Below are positions 23,895 through 31,390 of a stretch of DNA of 33,006 nucleotides, piece by piece. The stretch covers positions 1 to 33,006 of the IMG/VR virus record IMGVR_UViG_3300010430_000304; one strand, 5' to 3'. This DNA is from a virus. Positions within the stretch are counted from its first letter, which is position 1; every line of letters starts with the position of its first letter. The notes under the pieces were generated by a model. The model worked only from the letters and a program-made list of their open reading frames with translations. It did no database searches and was not told the DNA's origin. The translations under genes and the position numbers were made by a program.

Positions 23895-24416
23895 TTATTT
23901 TAGTCCTAATATCTTAAAAACCCTTCCTCCGGTGCTACAATCGTACCCCTGTCCTTCTAGGTATTTTTTATGACTTCTTAATGAATCTTTCAGATTAACA
24001 ACAGTTTCAATTAAATCTTCACGGTTAGAAACAATCTCTTCATTTAATTTTTCTAGGTGTTTTATTTTAATTAAAGCCTCCTCTAGCGTTAGAGAGTCTT
24101 CTATTATATCTGCATCTTTTGCTCTGTATTTGTCTTTAACCCAATTAAATTTTATAGAAAATTCTTTGTCAAATTCCTTAAGATCCCTGCATCTCTTTAT
24201 GTTATGCAATACAGAGGTGTGGTCTTTTCTTGGCTCAATAGTTTTACCTAATTTATCTAAGCCATAAGAAGTAAACTCTTTAGCTAAAAAAAAATATATC
24301 ATTCTAGCGTCCAAATACACAGTCTTGCGGCTAATATTAGTAAACGGATCGTCAAGGTCTACCTTTAATAGGTCGTATATTACTTTCTTGATAGCTTCAA
24401 TTCTTAAATCATTCAT
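23895..24416 (-). CDS. DnaA domain IV-like DNA-binding protein with C-terminal coiled coil (173 aa)
   Basis: The ATG at 24416, four bases after the upstream stop, is preferred over one at 24467 because it opens directly with 'MNDLRIEAIKKVIYDLL'. Residues 30-80 read like the C-terminal DNA-binding domain of DnaA: 'SRKTVYLDARMIYFFLAKEF', 'YGLDKLGKTI' and 'RKDHTSVLHNIKRCRDL', the last matching the signature loop (R-D-H-T/S-T-V) that contacts DnaA boxes. No AAA+ ATPase part is present. Residues about 108-155 form a charged coiled coil. A stand-alone domain IV could bind the phage origin or compete with host DnaA; neither is shown. It ends the primase/helicase unit. Confidence 0.65.
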   Translation of the reverse strand: MNDLRIEAIKKVIYDLLKVDLDDPFTNISRKTVYLDARMIYFFLAKEFTSYGLDKLGKTIEPRKDHTSVLHNIKRCRDLKEFDKEFSIKFNWVKDKYRAKDADIIEDSLTLEEALIKIKHLEKLNEEIVSNREDLIETVVNLKDSLRSHKKYLEGQGYDCSTGGRVFKILGLK

Positions 24417-24420
24417 AGTT

Positions 24421-24753
24421 TTATTTTTTATGTAAATTAATATAGTCAAGGTATTGGTCTGAATCAATAATGTTTAACTTATGGAATAGAGGCCATACGT
24501 TTTTATAATTCATAAACTCTACACTGTAGAAGAACGGATCTTCCTCGCCAACTACACCTGCTACTATTCCAATCTCATCTTCGGATTGAATTCCATTATT
24601 TATTATATCTTCGGATAGTTCCTCTACTATTCCGTCTAGGTGTTTTATTATTGAAGCGCTATACTTCACTGGTAAGTTTTCTAGTTCTATTAAAAAATTT
24701 TCCTCCAGCTCATAATAAAAATCATCCCCTGTATACCTCTGCTTTGAATCCAT
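24421..24753 (-). CDS. acidic protein of unknown function (110 aa)
   Basis: The start overlaps the VRR-NUC gene end by 32 bases and the stop lies four bases before the DnaA-like gene. The product is acidic, helical in the first 55 residues, and ends 'NLHKK'. The central 'EIGIVAGVVGEEDPFFYSVE' segment could be a strand pair. I see no known motif. Tight packing within the replication unit is the main support for it being a real gene. Confidence 0.55.
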   Translation of the reverse strand: MDSKQRYTGDDFYYELEENFLIELENLPVKYSASIIKHLDGIVEELSEDIINNGIQSEDEIGIVAGVVGEEDPFFYSVEFMNYKNVWPLFHKLNIIDSDQYLDYINLHKK

Positions 24754-24961
24754 ATTTCTTTAATTCTTTAAGTCTATACTCTTGTAGTGCAGAAACTTTC
24801 CCCTTGCTTGTTTTGACCTCGTAGAATTCAATGCTCTTGTCGGGATGTAAAGCCAATAGGTCAGGTATCCCATTCTTATTAGTCTTTATAAGTTTTAAAA
24901 CATAATACCCCAGCTCTTCTAGCTCTTTAATCTTTTTCGACTGCACCTGTTGCTCTGTCAT
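24722..24961 (-). CDS. VRR-NUC domain nuclease (79 aa)
   Basis: The whole chain is a minimal VRR-NUC (PD-(D/E)XK superfamily) domain: an N-terminal helix ('QSKKIKELEELGYYVLKL'), the motif G31-I-P-D34-L, then 'FYEVKTSKGKVS' with E48-V-K50, and a final helix/strand with 'LQEYRLKELKKYGFKAEV'. D34, E48 and K50 form the metal-binding active site. Stand-alone VRR-NUC proteins in phages are thought to act on branched or flap DNA, often beside SNF2-type helicases, and here the SF2 helicase gene is two genes upstream. The start overlaps the preceding 77-aa gene by 35 bases. Confidence 0.85.
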   Translation of the reverse strand: MTEQQVQSKKIKELEELGYYVLKLIKTNKNGIPDLLALHPDKSIEFYEVKTSKGKVSALQEYRLKELKKYGFKAEVYRG

Positions 24962-25160
24962 CTTTAGGGTCTTTCATTTTGGTTAACGCCTCAGTTTTTA
25001 CTTCTGCAATAGCTTCTTCATAACCTGGCATCCTTTCTAAGGTTTTAAAAGTTCCTACTGACAAGTCGCCAAGGTGTGTCAGCTCTGTAATTACTTTTTT
25101 TAAAATAAGATCAAGATGTTCTACCTTGTTTTTCATTTCCACTAATATTTGTTCTTTCAT
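24927..25160 (-). CDS. small charged helical protein of unknown function (77 aa)
   Basis: Located between the helicase and the VRR-NUC genes. The first half has heptad-like hydrophobic spacing ('MKNKVEHLDLILKKVITELT'), and the C-terminus is polar with many Lys, Asp and Glu. It may pair with a partner through a short coiled coil. A TAAGTTTG at 25197-25190 (minus strand) could be a weak internal promoter, without a -33 box. Unrecognised family. Confidence 0.55.
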   Translation of the reverse strand: MKEQILVEMKNKVEHLDLILKKVITELTHLGDLSVGTFKTLERMPGYEEAIAEVKTEALTKMKDPKDDRATGAVEKD

Positions 25161-25186
25161 TATATTTGATTTTAATTAATTATTAT

Positions 25187-26413
25187 TTACAAACTTAGTA
25201 AATCTTTTTTAAAATGATTCAGCGTGTAATCTTTTTTATTTTTTACCGCGTTATATATTTTACCCTCTATGCCTCCTTTAGAAAATATCCAATAGACGTC
25301 ATTTTCTAGTCTATCCTTAGTTGTCATCCTATCTTTAGACTGCCAATAACTAGTTGCACTAAAATCTATGTTGTAATACACAAGGCAAGATGCTTGCTTT
25401 AAAGATATCCCTTCGCGCCCTGATACGATTTGCAAAGCTATAGATTTATCTGTAGCCTCAAACTCTACTAAGTCGTTAGTCAAACTATCCCCGTAAACCT
25501 CTTTTAAGGCGTTTAGCTCCTCTTTAAACTTATAGAAGATACCTACCTTCACGTCTTTAAAATAGTCTCTTATAAAGCCTGCTTTAGAATAATCTAAAAC
25601 CTGGGAATTTCCTCCTTCAAATTTAACAGTCCCGGAATATATCTGATGCAACTTCATCATTAGCTTAACGGGAGTGTCGGCTAGTATAACCTCTTCCCTT
25701 CCCTCTACAACTAAATCTTTTTTTAACATACTAGCAACTTTATAAGTTGTCGGCAACATCTCGACATAAAGAACTTTTTCAGTGGTTTTAACCTTAAACC
25801 CTGCTTCTTTTTGGCTATAATTAATAGTATAAGGCTTCATTTTGTCAAGTATTAATTCACTTCCTTTGGAATAATCCCTAATTCTTAAGCTGTTTATCAT
25901 TCGTTCTGTAACGTTTACATATTTACCACAAAACTTATAAAAGCTTTTATATTCTTTAAAAGGATTTCTCTTACACATATAGACCTGGTGATACATCTGA
26001 CTGTAAGATTCCGGGGTAGGAGTTCCTGACATTAAAATAACCATAGGATCTTGTTGCCCCACCAAGAGTTTTACTTGCTTTGCCCTTTTGCTAGGTTTAG
26101 GAAACGCTCCCATACAGTGAGCTTCGTCTAAGACGATTAAGTCATAGCTTCCGCTAATTTTATGTAAGCTTTCGTAATTTATAACTTCCATTTTAAAGTT
26201 AGGCTTTAATAGCTCGTAGTCTTTCTCTATTGAACTTATAGCCTTCTTCTTGGTTACAAATAAAACGCTATTAACTTTCATTTCCCCTGCAATACCTAAG
26301 CTAGTTAAGGTTTTGCCCGTCCTTACCTCCATTGCCAAGTACAAGAACCCATGCTCACCTAAAACATCAGCGCCTTTTTTTATGATTTCTAATTGGTATT
26401 TTCTAAATTCCAT
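25187..26413 (-). CDS. SF2 (SNF2-like) DNA helicase/translocase (408 aa)
   Basis: The protein shows the ordered SF2 motifs: 'FRKYQLEIIKKG' (Q-motif-like, 3-14), motif I 'MEVRTGKT' (28-35, an Arg replacing the usual first Gly), motif II 'VLDEAH' (94-99), motif III 'LMSGTPTPES' (about 127-136), and at the C-terminus 'VSGREGISLKQA' (V) and 'SYWQSKDRMTTKDR' (VI, with the arginine finger). At 408 residues it is compact, with no accessory nuclease or zinc domain, like phage SNF2-type helicases. It starts on the last base of the primase stop (TAATG overlap), so the two are translationally coupled. A likely role is replication, fork repair or recombination in the cytoplasm, perhaps with the nearby VRR-NUC nuclease. 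Confidence 0.85.
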   Translation of the reverse strand: MEFRKYQLEIIKKGADVLGEHGFLYLAMEVRTGKTLTSLGIAGEMKVNSVLFVTKKKAISSIEKDYELLKPNFKMEVINYESLHKISGSYDLIVLDEAHCMGAFPKPSKRAKQVKLLVGQQDPMVILMSGTPTPESYSQMYHQVYMCKRNPFKEYKSFYKFCGKYVNVTERMINSLRIRDYSKGSELILDKMKPYTINYSQKEAGFKVKTTEKVLYVEMLPTTYKVASMLKKDLVVEGREEVILADTPVKLMMKLHQIYSGTVKFEGGNSQVLDYSKAGFIRDYFKDVKVGIFYKFKEELNALKEVYGDSLTNDLVEFEATDKSIALQIVSGREGISLKQASCLVYYNIDFSATSYWQSKDRMTTKDRLENDVYWIFSKGGIEGKIYNAVKNKKDYTLNHFKKDLLSL

Positions 26414-28839
26414 TAAAATTCTATTGATGATTGAAATTCCATGTCGTGTTTAGTCTGAAACTCAATCCACCTTCCCGTAGAATCCCTGCCTTCTTTAGGG
26501 GTAGCTTCAAACTTATATACAGCAAACATGACTAACCACCTATAAAAGCCTGTTCGAGTAAACGCCCTAGACTTAACGGCTCTTGGAGCATAATCAGGAT
26601 TCTCTTCTATAAAATCATAGTATAATTCTTGTTTGTATATTTTAACATTTGGAATTAATCTGATATTTTTTTCTGTTCCTTTTAATATTCCACACCACTC
26701 TAAAAATTCATGACAGGTTGATTGTCCTAGTTGTCTTACGTTTAAGTTTACAAAATCACTCTTAATTAAACCGTTTTTTAAATAATTTTGCAGGCATTTG
26801 ATCATGTAATTATCAAACTTGCACCAATCAGAATCATCCCAATCTCCAAACATTAATTTACCGAATTCATCTAAAGGAGTGTAGTTTTTATTGTAATGCT
26901 GATGCAACTCTAACTCCCATTTTCTTCTAGTGAAAGAGTTTCCTGTCCCTCTAATCGCGTAATTTGTTGTTATAGCTATCTTAGGCGACTTACTAAACGG
27001 TATTGTTATGGCATCTTTATTTTTCTTCTCCAATGTGATACCCTCAGTAACAACACTAAAAAGTCTTTCAAAATCAAAATGTTTTTTTACATCATCAAAA
27101 GAAAGGATTTGAGTATCAGCAGAAACTAACTGATAAGCAAAAGACCTATCAAAAGTAAAAGCCTTACCATCTATCTTTACTAGCTTTTTCATGTGAGATA
27201 ACGCATTCATAAAAATTCCTTTACCCGTTCCCCCTTCAGGATTTTCGCTGATCACTTCGTCATTTAAGATTACTGCCGGACAATAAGATAAGTTCTTGTG
27301 TCCATGCATTAAGAAACCGATTGTTGACTCCATCGTTAATGTCCTTGAGTAGTCTTTTCCGCTTATATTGTTTATGAAGGTTCTATAATCACACCCATCC
27401 GTATCACTATCTCTATACATCCTGTCAATTACATGGTCTTTCCACACATAACCACCTAAATCCACATAATCTAACACAGTTATACTGTCATAAGTTATTG
27501 CTACTGCGCAATTTTTATAATACAAATAAGATGTTTCCTTAGTGTCTGCAATAAAATATATATCAATCGTAGATAACAAGGTTAAAAATTCATCTCTAAA
27601 TAACCTAGTTTGTTCTGCAAAATAATTATATATAGATATGTCATCCATTGCAAACAAATGATTTAATATAAAATCTTTTATTTCATTGTCAGTAATGTGA
27701 TCAATTAGATTGTTAGTTACTTTTACAAAGACATAGTTTTTACTGCCTTCTGGACAGTACTTGTAAAATCCATTATCTTCTAAGAATTTTTTAAACACAA
27801 CAGGAACAGCTTTTACAACTCCTTTTTCAGATTTAGTCCAAAACTTTAGACTTACATCCTCCTCTGCTCGCTCTAATACAGAGTCAATAACTTCTGTCTC
27901 AAGCATAGAGTCTTCTAAACTCCTGCGTATTTCAATCTTTGAATCTCCCCTCCTAATTCTTTGCCCTATCTCATCTAAAGCATCTTTGTCTTCGTAAAAT
28001 TTACTACCAAATCCGGCGGTATTTTGATAAGCTGAAGCTATAGTAGCCTCTATTTCTGATAAAGTAAAACTCGATGATTGGTATTGTCCGCATACAAAAG
28101 AAGCTAAACTCTTATTAACCCCAAAATCATTAAAAGCCATAGCTAGAATGAAAACATTTTGATTACGTTGCCCCTCTATAACTGGATATTTCTTTTCCCA
28201 CCACTTTAAAAGTATTTCAACTATTCTATTTTCATCTGTAATCTGTATAGTTGGAGGACTTTTCTTGAAAGACATCTCCTGATGCTCTTCTTCTTCAATT
28301 TTATTCCACTCCAAAGAATTTTTGTTTACAAACACCAAGGGATCATAAGACTCATAACATACTCTAGAAATGTTTTTGCTTGTTGTGTCAAAGTATTCCG
28401 ATCCTAGTTCTTTTTCTAAAGAATTAAAATACCTAGAATGATTGTCGGCTTCTCTCGGTATTCTTATTAATACTTTTAACCCGTTTCCTGATGGAGATAC
28501 AAAAACTGCGTAAACAAATTTGTTTTTTATAAACTTTTCTTTGTCCTGGAGTAAATCTTTTTGTTTTGAATAGCCATCATAATCCAAACATATTAAACCA
28601 CTGTGTTCAATTATTGAAGAATCTGATCGTTTATTAAACTTACCGCTAAAACAAACGGCAGGCAATTCTTTTTTTAACTCATTTCTTTTTGACTTATCTT
28701 TTTCTCTTCTAATGCTTTTGATTAAATTTTTAGATGATCCAATCTTTATTCTATTCAAGATATAATCTGTGTCCTTGAAGAAAGGAGTTTGGGTTTCTTT
28801 AATGTTTTTGAATATTGTAACTTCGTGTGTCGAGTTCAT
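26413..28839 (-). CDS. BT4734-type primase / SF3-like helicase fusion (808 aa)
   Basis: The N-terminal domain (about 1-190) has the BT4734/VirE-N type primase-like features 'GLICLDYDGY' (D86-x-D88) and 'SPSGNGLKVLIRI' (115-127). A PriCT-like helical region follows (about 205-270). The C-terminal half has an SF3/D5-like helicase core: Walker A 'EGGTGKG' (535-541), 'ILSFDDVKK' as the Walker B region, 'ITTNYAIRG' as sensor 1 and 'SFTRRKWELEL' as an arginine finger. Proteins of this design prime and unwind DNA in Bacteroidota mobile elements and phages. It opens its unit; a sigma70-like sequence and a strong upstream terminator lie in the 208-base gap. Its stop overlaps the SF2 helicase start. 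Confidence 0.85.
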   Translation of the reverse strand: MNSTHEVTIFKNIKETQTPFFKDTDYILNRIKIGSSKNLIKSIRREKDKSKRNELKKELPAVCFSGKFNKRSDSSIIEHSGLICLDYDGYSKQKDLLQDKEKFIKNKFVYAVFVSPSGNGLKVLIRIPREADNHSRYFNSLEKELGSEYFDTTSKNISRVCYESYDPLVFVNKNSLEWNKIEEEEHQEMSFKKSPPTIQITDENRIVEILLKWWEKKYPVIEGQRNQNVFILAMAFNDFGVNKSLASFVCGQYQSSSFTLSEIEATIASAYQNTAGFGSKFYEDKDALDEIGQRIRRGDSKIEIRRSLEDSMLETEVIDSVLERAEEDVSLKFWTKSEKGVVKAVPVVFKKFLEDNGFYKYCPEGSKNYVFVKVTNNLIDHITDNEIKDFILNHLFAMDDISIYNYFAEQTRLFRDEFLTLLSTIDIYFIADTKETSYLYYKNCAVAITYDSITVLDYVDLGGYVWKDHVIDRMYRDSDTDGCDYRTFINNISGKDYSRTLTMESTIGFLMHGHKNLSYCPAVILNDEVISENPEGGTGKGIFMNALSHMKKLVKIDGKAFTFDRSFAYQLVSADTQILSFDDVKKHFDFERLFSVVTEGITLEKKNKDAITIPFSKSPKIAITTNYAIRGTGNSFTRRKWELELHQHYNKNYTPLDEFGKLMFGDWDDSDWCKFDNYMIKCLQNYLKNGLIKSDFVNLNVRQLGQSTCHEFLEWCGILKGTEKNIRLIPNVKIYKQELYYDFIEENPDYAPRAVKSRAFTRTGFYRWLVMFAVYKFEATPKEGRDSTGRWIEFQTKHDMEFQSSIEF

Positions 28840-28949
28840 GTCGATTTATTGAATTAAATTACTTGGTATAACTGATTAGTGTCGATAATGTTATCTTTAT
28901 TTCTTGTATAGGAGAATAAAAAATATTATAAGTAAAAAAAACCCTTATA

Positions 28950-28978
28950 TATATAGTTAGAGGTGTTTTTATTGACAA
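28950..28978 (-). promoter_or_regulatory. sigma70-like promoter candidate (TTGTCA-N17-TATATA)
   Basis: On the minus strand TTGTCA (28978-28973) and TATATA (28955-28950) are 17 bases apart, close to the classic TTGACA-N17-TATAAT. It lies downstream of the terminator at 28997-29021 and about 110 bases before the primase start. No TAnnTTTG is present in this gap. AT-rich DNA gives such hits easily, so this is tentative. Confidence 0.3.
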
Positions 28979-28996
28979 TCGGCACAGTTATTTGGT

Positions 28997-29021
28997 AAAA
29001 AAAGGAGGTTTTTACACCTCC
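28997..29021 (-). terminator. intrinsic terminator of the recombination unit
   Basis: On the minus strand a 6-bp GC-rich stem GGAGGT/ACCTCC with a 6-base loop is followed directly by seven Ts. It lies 27 bases after the stop of the SSB-like gene. The stem is the most GC-rich element in this gap. On the plus strand CTTTT follows the stem, but no plus-strand gene needs it. Confidence 0.8.
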
Positions 29022-29047
29022 CTTTTACTCTTTAATAAAATTAATTA

Positions 29048-29311
29048 TTAAAACCCAATCTCTCCTTGAGAGTTGGTGGCACTGTTGTTAGCTTGAGGTT
29101 TTGGCTCAAACGTGTTCAACTCTGCGTAATACTTTCCAGATTTAGCCTGCTTCACTGTTGCGTTAACCCATCCGTTTTTAATGTTGGCATCCAAGAAATT
29201 TTTGAAGTCCTGAACCTTAAACGATAGCTCTGCAATAACAAAGTTAGGAGATCCATCACGTTTTTTAACGATCAGACCGTCTGCAAATACCTTTTCTTTT
29301 TGTTCATTCAT
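29048..29311 (-). CDS. SSB-like single-strand DNA-binding candidate (87 aa)
   Basis: The small protein is mostly beta: 'VFADGLIVKKRDGSPNFVIAEL', 'SFKVQDFKNFLDANIKNGWV' and 'NATVKQAKSGKYYAELNTFEP'. A flexible Gln/Asn/Ser tail follows, ending in 'GEIGF', which resembles the acidic-hydrophobic tip of bacterial SSB tails. It is of a type I recall from cyanophage and other marine phage genomes in replication modules. Its place right after the ERF annealing protein and exonuclease genes fits a single-strand DNA-binding helper. Binding itself is inferred; a small OB-fold is possible but not proven. A strong terminator follows 27 bases after its stop. Confidence 0.5.
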   Translation of the reverse strand: MNEQKEKVFADGLIVKKRDGSPNFVIAELSFKVQDFKNFLDANIKNGWVNATVKQAKSGKYYAELNTFEPKPQANNSATNSQGEIGF

Positions 29312-29336
29312 AATATATATATTAAATTAAATTAAA

Positions 29337-30107
29337 CTATAAAGGACTATTTATGATTAAATCCTCTATTTTTTCAGTGGCATCTTTGCTAAAATATTTT
29401 TCGTAATTTTGCATCGCCAATTCCACTTTTTCTTTTCCTTGTAAAACAAACTCTTCGGTAGTAGGGAAAACTCCTATATCAAAGTAAGGTATGTTAGATT
29501 TACCAAAATACTTTCTAGTCTTGCCAACCACAATAAACGTCATTCCGACCTCAAAAAGAGTTTGATATATAAAAGCTTGAGTATCATAACCGTACGTGTA
29601 GGCGTTTCTTTTGAATTTAAAAATATCACTTGTAGTTTTTAAATCAACACAGACTCCCTGGCTAATTATATCAGCTTTTCCTTTAAATGGTCTTCCGAAT
29701 ATCTCCCCTATCATAGGCTCTTCATACTTAGCGTCGAAGTTTGTGATCAAATCAGTAAGCACCTTGTCTTTACCTAAAAGGTAATCGACCATATCTTTTA
29801 TGTCGTCAGCTTCTGTTTTAGTAAGAGCAAACGTCAAATTGTTCTCTTCTAAGAAGCTTTTATAAGATTTAGTATTTCTACCCTTAATATCTACGATAGG
29901 GAACTCAAGGGCCTTATTTGGCTCTAGAATTAGCTGATGAAAGAACCTTCCCTTAGCAAAATTATCGTTATCGGGTTGAATTGCTCCAAACTGTTGAGGT
30001 TCGTAAATTAAATTTTTAATATCTGAGTTAGATATGTACTGTTTTCCAAACTTTCCGTAATAATGCTCATCATCACGAAGCTTTTCTATTATTTTTTCAT
30101 GTTTCAT
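29337..30107 (-). CDS. RecE-like PD-(D/E)XK exonuclease (256 aa)
   Basis: The protein has the core of the phage/RecE exonuclease group: 'SNSDIKNLIYEPQQF' near the N-terminus, 'AKGRFFHQLILEP' (51-63, with H57), 'EEPMIGEIFGRPFKGKADII' (129-148, with D146), 'VCVDLKTT' (152-159, with D155-x-K157) and 'YGYDTQAFIYQ' (172-182). D146, D155 and K157 are the expected metal-binding residues. It should resect double-stranded DNA ends to give single strands for the annealing protein encoded just upstream, whose stop overlaps this ATG by one base. The length is typical of the small phage versions of this family. Cytoplasmic. Confidence 0.85.
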   Translation of the reverse strand: MKHEKIIEKLRDDEHYYGKFGKQYISNSDIKNLIYEPQQFGAIQPDNDNFAKGRFFHQLILEPNKALEFPIVDIKGRNTKSYKSFLEENNLTFALTKTEADDIKDMVDYLLGKDKVLTDLITNFDAKYEEPMIGEIFGRPFKGKADIISQGVCVDLKTTSDIFKFKRNAYTYGYDTQAFIYQTLFEVGMTFIVVGKTRKYFGKSNIPYFDIGVFPTTEEFVLQGKEKVELAMQNYEKYFSKDATEKIEDLIINSPL

Positions 30108-30694
30108 TATTTATTTTTTTTAAGTTCTTTTTCTTGCTCTACTGATACATTGTATTTAGTCTTTAACGCTTTTATAATTGTCGCCCAAGCTTCTCCTCGA
30201 TCTCGTCTGCCTTTTATTTTTGCCAATACACCTGCCCAATCATCATCCTTTAAGTCTACTTTTACATTAGTCTGTACTTTACCAACTTTAATTTCTTTGG
30301 AGGTGCTTTTTTGTTCTCCATAAGCATCTAGGTCTTTGTCGGAAACTATGCCGAGTTGACTACTAAGTTGGTAACGTCTAAAATAAGTTGTTCCTGATCC
30401 AAAAGACTGATAAGCATTCATACCTTTCATTTCTACTAATGGTATATCTACTGTTGAACTGTCAGACTCTCCGCTTGCTGCATGAAATATAGCTGTCGTT
30501 AAGCAAGAGTTTCCCGTTTCATTATTAGTTCCTAGCTTTTGCGTGAATCCTAACCCATGTTTTTTCATTAAAGGGTTTATCTTATGCATAATGGTAGGTA
30601 AATCAACATAGGTATATCCGTAGCCTGATGTGGCTTTTAGTAACACGGGGCATTCTTGCTGAAACTCTGCGAGTGCTTTGTAATAATTCTTCAT
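30107..30694 (-). CDS. ERF-family single-strand annealing recombinase (195 aa)
   Basis: The N-terminal 125 residues fit the ERF family: 'YYKALAEFQQECPVLLK' (4-20), 'YGYTYVDLPTIMHKINPLMK' (25-44), 'HGLGFTQ' (46-52) and the diagnostic 'GSGTTYFRRYQLSSQLGI' (99-116) with 'SDKDLDA' after it. The C-terminal part is charged and ends in a Lys-rich tail, perhaps contacting a partner. ERF proteins anneal complementary single strands and, paired with an exonuclease, allow circularisation and recombination of phage DNA. The gene is coupled to the exonuclease behind it (TAATG) and to the gene before it (ATGA). Confidence 0.9.
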   Translation of the reverse strand: MKNYYKALAEFQQECPVLLKATSGYGYTYVDLPTIMHKINPLMKKHGLGFTQKLGTNNETGNSCLTTAIFHAASGESDSSTVDIPLVEMKGMNAYQSFGSGTTYFRRYQLSSQLGIVSDKDLDAYGEQKSTSKEIKVGKVQTNVKVDLKDDDWAGVLAKIKGRRDRGEAWATIIKALKTKYNVSVEQEKELKKNK

Positions 30695-31098
30695 AGTTTT
30701 TTTGATTTTTGAGTTAGTTTATAATATTTCTTTAATACTGTAACACGAGCAGCTTTATAAGTTTCTAAGCTTTTTGTATTTATACTCATGCTATTCATTT
30801 CGCGTTTAATGTTTTCGTTGAGCCTATCTATTGTTCTTTTATACTTGTCTAGGGATATTATGTTTACCGCTTTATTCCACCCATGATCAAAAAATAACTG
30901 ATACTGATGCTCATTCATTTCTATGTAATAATCTCCTCCCTTTGCGGGGTCATAAAGAGTAACGTCTCCACTCTCTATGTCTCTAGATATTTTTATACCT
31001 AGCTCCATTCTTGCTTCATAGCCATGCCAATCTAATTTAACTGAACCATAGCTTTTTTTAGCATCTTCAAATATCTCATCTAGTTCGTTAAATATCAA
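30691..31098 (-). CDS. protein of unknown function in the recombination unit (135 aa)
   Basis: The gene overlaps the DnaA-like gene by 11 bases upstream and the ERF gene by ATGA downstream, so translation is coupled. The first 75 residues mix helix and strands ('WHGYEARMELGIKISRD', 'DYYIEMNEHQYQLFFDHGW'), and the rest is one or two basic helices ending in a Lys-rich tail. No catalytic motif or metal site is evident. From context it may help replication or recombination, but I do not recognise the family. Confidence 0.6.
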   Translation of the reverse strand: MIFNELDEIFEDAKKSYGSVKLDWHGYEARMELGIKISRDIESGDVTLYDPAKGGDYYIEMNEHQYQLFFDHGWNKAVNIISLDKYKRTIDRLNENIKREMNSMSINTKSLETYKAARVTVLKKYYKLTQKSKKL

Positions 31099-31390
31099 TT
31101 TGTTTTAATTTAGAGATTATATAATTATAGTCTGGATCTTTTCGGATTGTCTCTTTGATACTTACTATACCTCTATCAATAGTTGATCTTTGAAAGTCTA
31201 TAGATGATAGGTTTTTAGTGTGTCTTTTAATTTCTGTTGGAGTCATTCCATGTTCGGAGCATAGAAACCAAAGTAATCTCCTGGCTTCAACAATGTGCCT
31301 TATTTTTGTTTTTTCAAGTATCAGATTATAATCTACTTCTAGATGTTTAGCGATTTTTTTTAGATATTGAATAAATATATGTTCTTTCAT
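31088..31390 (-). CDS. DnaA domain IV-like / helix-turn-helix protein (100 aa)
   Basis: The chain is all helical and resembles the C-terminal DNA-binding part of DnaA: 'IAKHLEVDYNLILEKTKIRH', then 'VEARRLLWFLCSEHGMTPTE' (35-54, the helix that in DnaA reads ARxIAMYL) and 'RSTIDRGIVSIKETI' (68-82) where DnaA has DHTTVxxA. The signature is looser than in the protein at 23895. There is no ATPase domain. It begins within the ATGA coupling to a 48-aa gene. It could recognise phage origin sites or act as a regulator; a generic helix-turn-helix is the main alternative. Confidence 0.55.
   Translation of the reverse strand: MKEHIFIQYLKKIAKHLEVDYNLILEKTKIRHIVEARRLLWFLCSEHGMTPTEIKRHTKNLSSIDFQRSTIDRGIVSIKETIRKDPDYNYIISKLKQIDI

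Follow-up and report, generated by a model that had tools for sequence, protein, structure and literature searches.

Domain IV of the bacterial initiator DnaA (PF08299, Bac_DnaA_C; Escherichia coli 1j1v) is a helix-turn-helix domain, and in the E. coli protein the helix at 434–451 reads TnCACA in the major groove while Arg399 reads TTA in the minor groove (PMC5742627). The domain is also reused outside DnaA. Transposases associated with repetitive extragenic palindromic (REP) sequences carry a Bac_DnaA_C tail, possibly with a changed target, but there it is fused to a HuH nuclease, and no origin module is described in the parts of that report considered here (PMC6006769). The Rickettsia plasmid pRF has three copies of DnaA-like proteins, proposed to initiate plasmid replication (PMC1800911). 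It shares with the phage described here the presence of several DnaA-like proteins on one mobile replicon, but it is a plasmid in an unrelated host, and the parts of the paper considered here describe no paired box modules. Among phages, Cellulophaga phage phi46:1 and MW202828 have proteins of the same stand-alone kind in the same gene neighbourhood, annotated by name only (gp40, 'putative DnaA protein', in the former; 'dnaA' / 'chromosomal replication initiation protein' in the latter); in phi46:1 a single copy is annotated, and we saw no box cluster of a comparable sort there. Stand-alone DnaA-like phage proteins and several DnaA-like proteins on Rickettsia plasmids are therefore already known. 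Here we analyzed IMGVR_UViG_3300010430_000304, a linear viral record of 33,006 bases from a podovirus-like phage (hereafter the window), which encodes two stand-alone DnaA domain IV proteins of 173 and 100 amino acids (aa). New here is a conserved, origin-like module immediately before the primase gene. The literature searched contained no report of a conserved pair of such proteins together with matching box modules, an absence that is weak evidence.

Our favoured reading, which we hold to be moderately probable, is that the DnaA domain IV proteins mark the phage's own origins: in one or more short modules they would bind boxes of TCRACA type, which derive from the DnaA box. The module in the window spans positions 28827–28985 and consists, with the gene that it abuts, of the following features:

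28827–28833, minus strand: box 3, TCGACAC, within the first codons of the primase gene.
28838–28844, minus strand: box 2, TCGACAT, overlapping the primase start codon.
28865–28877, minus strand: the place of the integration host factor (IHF)-type element of relatives, degenerate in the window (AATCAGTTATACC).
28879–28885, minus strand: box 1, TCGACAC, in the context TTATCGACAC (the DnaA box TTATCCACA with C6 changed to G).
28890–28975, minus strand: AT-rich, thermodynamically weak DNA by duplex stability, resembling a DNA unwinding element.
28979–28985, plus strand: inverted box, here TCGGCAC (minus strand, GTGCCGA); it is some 100 bp away from box 1, a distance similar to that in relatives.
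26413–28839, minus strand: 808-aa VirE-N/DUF5906 primase-helicase (PF08800, PF19263; phrog_28855, 1074 bits), directly downstream of the module, with a Walker-A-like motif, GGTGKG.

The word TCGACA occurs three times within 239 bp at the module, against 0.036 occurrences expected (p 8e-6). The boxes begin at 28885, 28844 and 28833 on the minus strand, and the resulting spacings of 41 and 11 bp are identical in divergent relatives. The composite of three boxes at these spacings is found once in the window and in none of 300 shuffles; in 1.5 Mb of relatives it recurs nine times, at the two module positions. The least stable 60-bp stretch of the region falls within the top 0.4% of the window. The box itself, TTATCGACA, looks like the DnaA box TTATCCACA with an altered sixth base.

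Related viral loci (80 in total) were collected via the primase. An unbiased search for clustered 9-mers in these loci kept yielding TCGACA-type words immediately ahead of the primase gene, and the regions share one architecture. Scanning the related records for box-rich non-coding gaps revealed a second module in many of them, 6–11 kb before the primase; the window record stops short of where this second module would sit. With the IHF-type element set to zero, boxes are found near −21/−12, +29 and +40, and in many cases also near +51. Near −110 there are one or two inverted boxes, separated from the others by AT-rich DNA; a few lineages displace the box positions by some bases. Of 19 non-redundant primase-side modules that have boxes, 10 contain the IHF consensus WATCARNNNNTTR, compared with 1.6% by chance; a phage-encoded HU or IHF was not found above the cut-off in 16 records. 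In each genome the AT-rich part ranks with the least stable DNA (top 1% for most modules, weaker in G018, G020, G025 and G007). The module resembles bacterial oriC in having unstable AT-rich DNA beside boxes, boxes in helical phase and, in many relatives, an IHF consensus between the boxes. It differs from oriC in being only about 160 bp long, often present twice per genome, built from a private box and placed beside a phage primase-helicase gene, and is best described as a candidate origin. The boxes of MW202828 also include a perfect 16-bp palindrome, GTGTCGTTAACGACAC, formed by two head-to-head boxes ahead of several small early genes (L083 13232–14861); its half-site word, TAACGACA/TGTCGTTA, is rare in other related records.

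The two DnaA-like proteins of the window are encoded as follows:

23895–24416, minus strand: 173-aa stand-alone DnaA domain IV protein ('down' gene) with a C-terminal coiled-coil-like tail (PF08299; phmmer match to E. coli DnaA domain IV, 1j1v), counted from the ATG at 24416; the mechanical open reading frame begins at a TTG further upstream.
24192–24401, minus strand: Bac_DnaA_C domain of the 173-aa protein, with the conserved DnaA-box contact residues R30, R38 and H66.
31088–31390, minus strand: 100-aa stand-alone DnaA domain IV protein ('up' gene), with a recognition helix that is degenerate in the window phage (PF08299, family profile).

An earlier note, made from this DNA sequence alone, had called the longer protein DnaA domain IV-like and the shorter one a looser version, both lacking the AAA+ ATPase and lying in two different early units, and all of this holds, with correct coordinates. 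The 173-aa protein matches PF08299 over residues 6–75 with E 3.6e-8 and 33.7 bits, above the 31.5-bit cut-off. The 100-aa protein by itself is under this cut-off (E 8.3e-6, 26.2 bits), but its membership in the DnaA domain IV family is unambiguous at the profile level because all 43 aligned short-family members match PF08299 (E up to 0.01, best 2.8e-11), several relatives scoring above the cut-off. For the long family, 44 of 45 aligned copies match; five rows of that alignment represent a subgroup with one copy only, placed before the primase. In PDB profile searches DnaA chains rank first for both families (short, E 1.8e-6 with Aquifex DnaA; long, E 7e-12), and the two families align with each other along the domain with an hhalign probability of 98. 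The search against the DnaA C-terminal family that the note had proposed led to DnaA and not to unrelated helix-turn-helix families. On these sequence profiles both proteins are predicted to have the fold of a stand-alone DnaA domain IV. Unlike in bacterial DnaA, no AAA+ domain accompanies it: PF00308 has no match in either window protein and none above the cut-off in 16 related records, where the sole signal is one weak match of 13.6 bits. The 100-aa gene lies before the ERF/exonuclease genes, and the primase/helicase unit ends with the 173-aa gene.

The pair is old and conserved, judging from the PF08299 search of 50 related records. Matches were found in 46 of these, often two per record and in two size classes of about 100 aa and about 130–190 aa, and most of the 50 have both copies. 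By position, the short copy precedes ERF/exonuclease and is 2–3 kb before the primase gene; the long copy follows that gene at 2–5 kb. In a tree the short family forms a clade (100/98) separate from the long family and from cellular DnaA, and the two therefore look like old lineages rather than the product of a recent duplication; the domain is short, and the unity of the long family itself is weakly supported. One subgroup, comprising L073 (7009–7218), L081 (4537–4745) and their neighbours, has a single, strongly DnaA-like protein of 150 aa (PF08299 E 1.5e-17 for L081). This protein (GRDHST) is accompanied by one cluster of eight TCGACACA-type boxes, located about 0.8 kb upstream of the primase in most members and about 2.5 kb in L081. 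It is the simplest version of the system. The cultured phage phi46:1 (L200 29088–29600) shows the gene order of the window, with its long-family gp40 (E 6.7e-19) downstream of primase, helicase and VRR-NUC genes.

In the long family Arg30 and Arg38 are nearly invariant and His66 is invariant. They fall on E. coli R399, R407 and H434 in the profile alignment, for which the E. coli numbering was worked out from chain 1j1v. The 173-aa protein keeps the basic-loop Arg, the R407-type Arg and the DHT(S/T)VLH helix of E. coli positions D433–H439, here RKDHTSVLH. Most short copies of relatives have HS(T/S/N)I(I/L)(H/Y) at the helix position. The predicted boxes are of TCRACA type, while that of DnaA is TTATNCACA, and they differ between lineages (TCGACA, TCAACA, TCGTCA, TCAGCA, ..ACAG).

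With boxes read by hand at fixed positions, the two modules of one genome agree better in their box than modules of different genomes (13 lineages, p 3e-5). Since independent drift would not produce such a match, the boxes probably have a shared, co-evolving reader that is encoded by the phage. The concerted change at both modules also disfavours host DnaA as the reader. For this role the DnaA domain IV proteins suggest themselves, as the box looks like a DnaA box altered at its sixth base and the GRDHST subgroup, with its one highly DnaA-like protein, has its eight TCGACACA-type boxes. Primase-side boxes were lost (L003, L007–L009, L033 and L048) only within the clade with a degenerate short-protein helix, which hints that the short protein may read the primase-side module. 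This association is confined to one clade, to which the window belongs even though it retains its boxes, so it is not phylogenetically independent and we do not count it as independent proof. A simple code between helix residues and box letters was looked for and not found.

These comparisons bear on the functional proposals of the earlier note, of which the idea that the proteins occupy host DnaA boxes is unsupported. Relative to the TTATNCACA consensus the sixth base of the phage boxes is changed, and the boxes are not alike from phage to phage, which is what a private code would give. Host-type boxes (TTWTNCACA) are not enriched in the window (84 matches with at most one mismatch, 98.7 expected). 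The proposal that the proteins mark a phage origin for the primase-helicase gains strong circumstantial support from the conserved module of boxes and unstable DNA that abuts the primase gene, with binding and replication being what we infer from it. The note further saw a matched pair with different binding signatures that suggested two sites or two steps. The recognition helices do differ (QRSTIDR in the 100-aa protein, DHTSVLH in the 173-aa protein), and the second module of relatives fits the idea of two sites, but distinct targets for the two proteins are not supported because the boxes of both sites in one genome match each other.

In the mechanism that we propose from these sequences, one or both of the stand-alone proteins would bind the phased boxes on one helix face, as given by the 41- and 11-bp spacings, assisted in many relatives by an IHF/HU-type bend. 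The bound boxes would expose or open the AT-rich DNA, where the adjacent VirE-N/DUF5906 primase-helicase might load, prime and provide ATP-driven unwinding, replacing both the AAA+ part of bacterial DnaA and its helicase. As the boxes overlap the primase start, binding there probably also regulates the primase gene by feedback. A more ambitious version is that this phage lineage rebuilt the DnaA–oriC machine in split form, with paired domain IV proteins, two duplicated mini-origins that share an orthogonal, co-evolving box code, and a primase-helicase that substitutes for AAA+; this is possible, and we offer it tentatively.

Several observations weigh against proteins of this kind marking origins. 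The IHF element is degenerate in the window, and its 100-aa protein has lost recognition-helix residues, with QRSTIDR at the site of the relatives' GHSTIIH and, by alignment, Lys at the R399 position. Boxes are kept without a detectable DnaA domain IV protein in L035 (a fragment) and L071/G048. L053 and L064 keep theirs as well; their 100-aa helix is degenerate, and no homologue of the 173-aa protein was found in them. L009 and L033 have an identical 173-aa helix and different boxes, so the recognition helix does not simply decode the box. Finally, in G018, G020, G015 and G045 a Bacteroidetes-type promoter-like site (TTG-N17-22-TAnnTTTG) is located in or beside the inverted-box end of the second module and points away from the module, as would suit an operator.

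This last point belongs to the main rival, in which the proteins are transcription regulators with a DnaA fold, the boxes are operators of the primase unit and of early promoters, and the modules are not replication origins. DnaA itself can serve as a transcription factor, according to the part of PMC8203912 considered here, and the overlap of boxes 2 and 3 with the primase start, like the palindrome GTGTCGTTAACGACAC ahead of early genes in MW202828, would be expected of operators. By itself, however, an operator leaves the box-flanked, very unstable DNA, the fixed 41/11-bp geometry and the IHF element unexplained, and a plus-strand search of 79 primase-side regions gave no TAnnTTTG element. 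We therefore regard an exclusively regulatory role as rather unlikely, while origin and operator roles are compatible. It is less likely still that the primase-helicase, or some other protein of phage or host, is the box reader and that the DnaA domain IV proteins act otherwise, for example by binding host DnaA boxes to stop host replication. The loci with boxes but without a detectable DnaA domain IV protein, and the primase gene adjoining the first module, agree with such a reader. Against it stand the likeness of the box to the DnaA box, the DnaA recognition scaffold of the proteins and, with the phylogenetic reservation above, the loss of primase-side boxes only where the 100-aa helix is degenerate; a conserved host reader would in addition not account for lineage-specific, concerted box changes. 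That the proteins are unrelated helix-turn-helix proteins resembling DnaA by chance is very unlikely. Only the score of the 100-aa protein alone would suit this, and the family-wide PF08299 matches, the first rank of DnaA in PDB searches and the alignment of the two families speak against it.

Two further features lie upstream of the module:

29048–29311, minus strand: 87-aa small protein, similar to a single-stranded DNA-binding protein by position only (no significant family match).
29337–30694, minus strand: genes for an exonuclease VIII-like protein (DUF3799) and an ERF annealing protein, between the 100-aa gene and the module.

The unit of the 173-aa gene also holds a gene for a 79-aa VRR-NUC nuclease (24722–24961), two genes further upstream. 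The closest annotated genome to the window is MW202828 (60.85 kb, Manatee Spring), with a primase 65% identical and one structural protein 51% identical, followed for the structural protein by the Flavobacterium elemo phages. Neither DnaA domain IV protein was found in the 31-kb stretch searched of Elemovirus, the nearest cultured relative by structural genes. Relatives also encode GroES and GroEL homologues (L083 9639–11529; L202 35281–37094). Close primase relatives (L196–L199) occur in metagenome-assembled 'Gammaproteobacteria', 'Aliivibrio' and 'Aureispira' bins, and are probably mis-binned phage contigs.

If the proteins do mark origins in this way, the near-universal bacterial initiator would have a DNA-reading part that functions even when separated from its motor, whose task a phage helicase takes on. 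The related loci would then offer dozens of natural box and reader variants with which site choice by DnaA-type domains could be worked out. The phages concerned are a widespread, mostly aquatic and uncultured group, for which the modules provide candidate replication origins.

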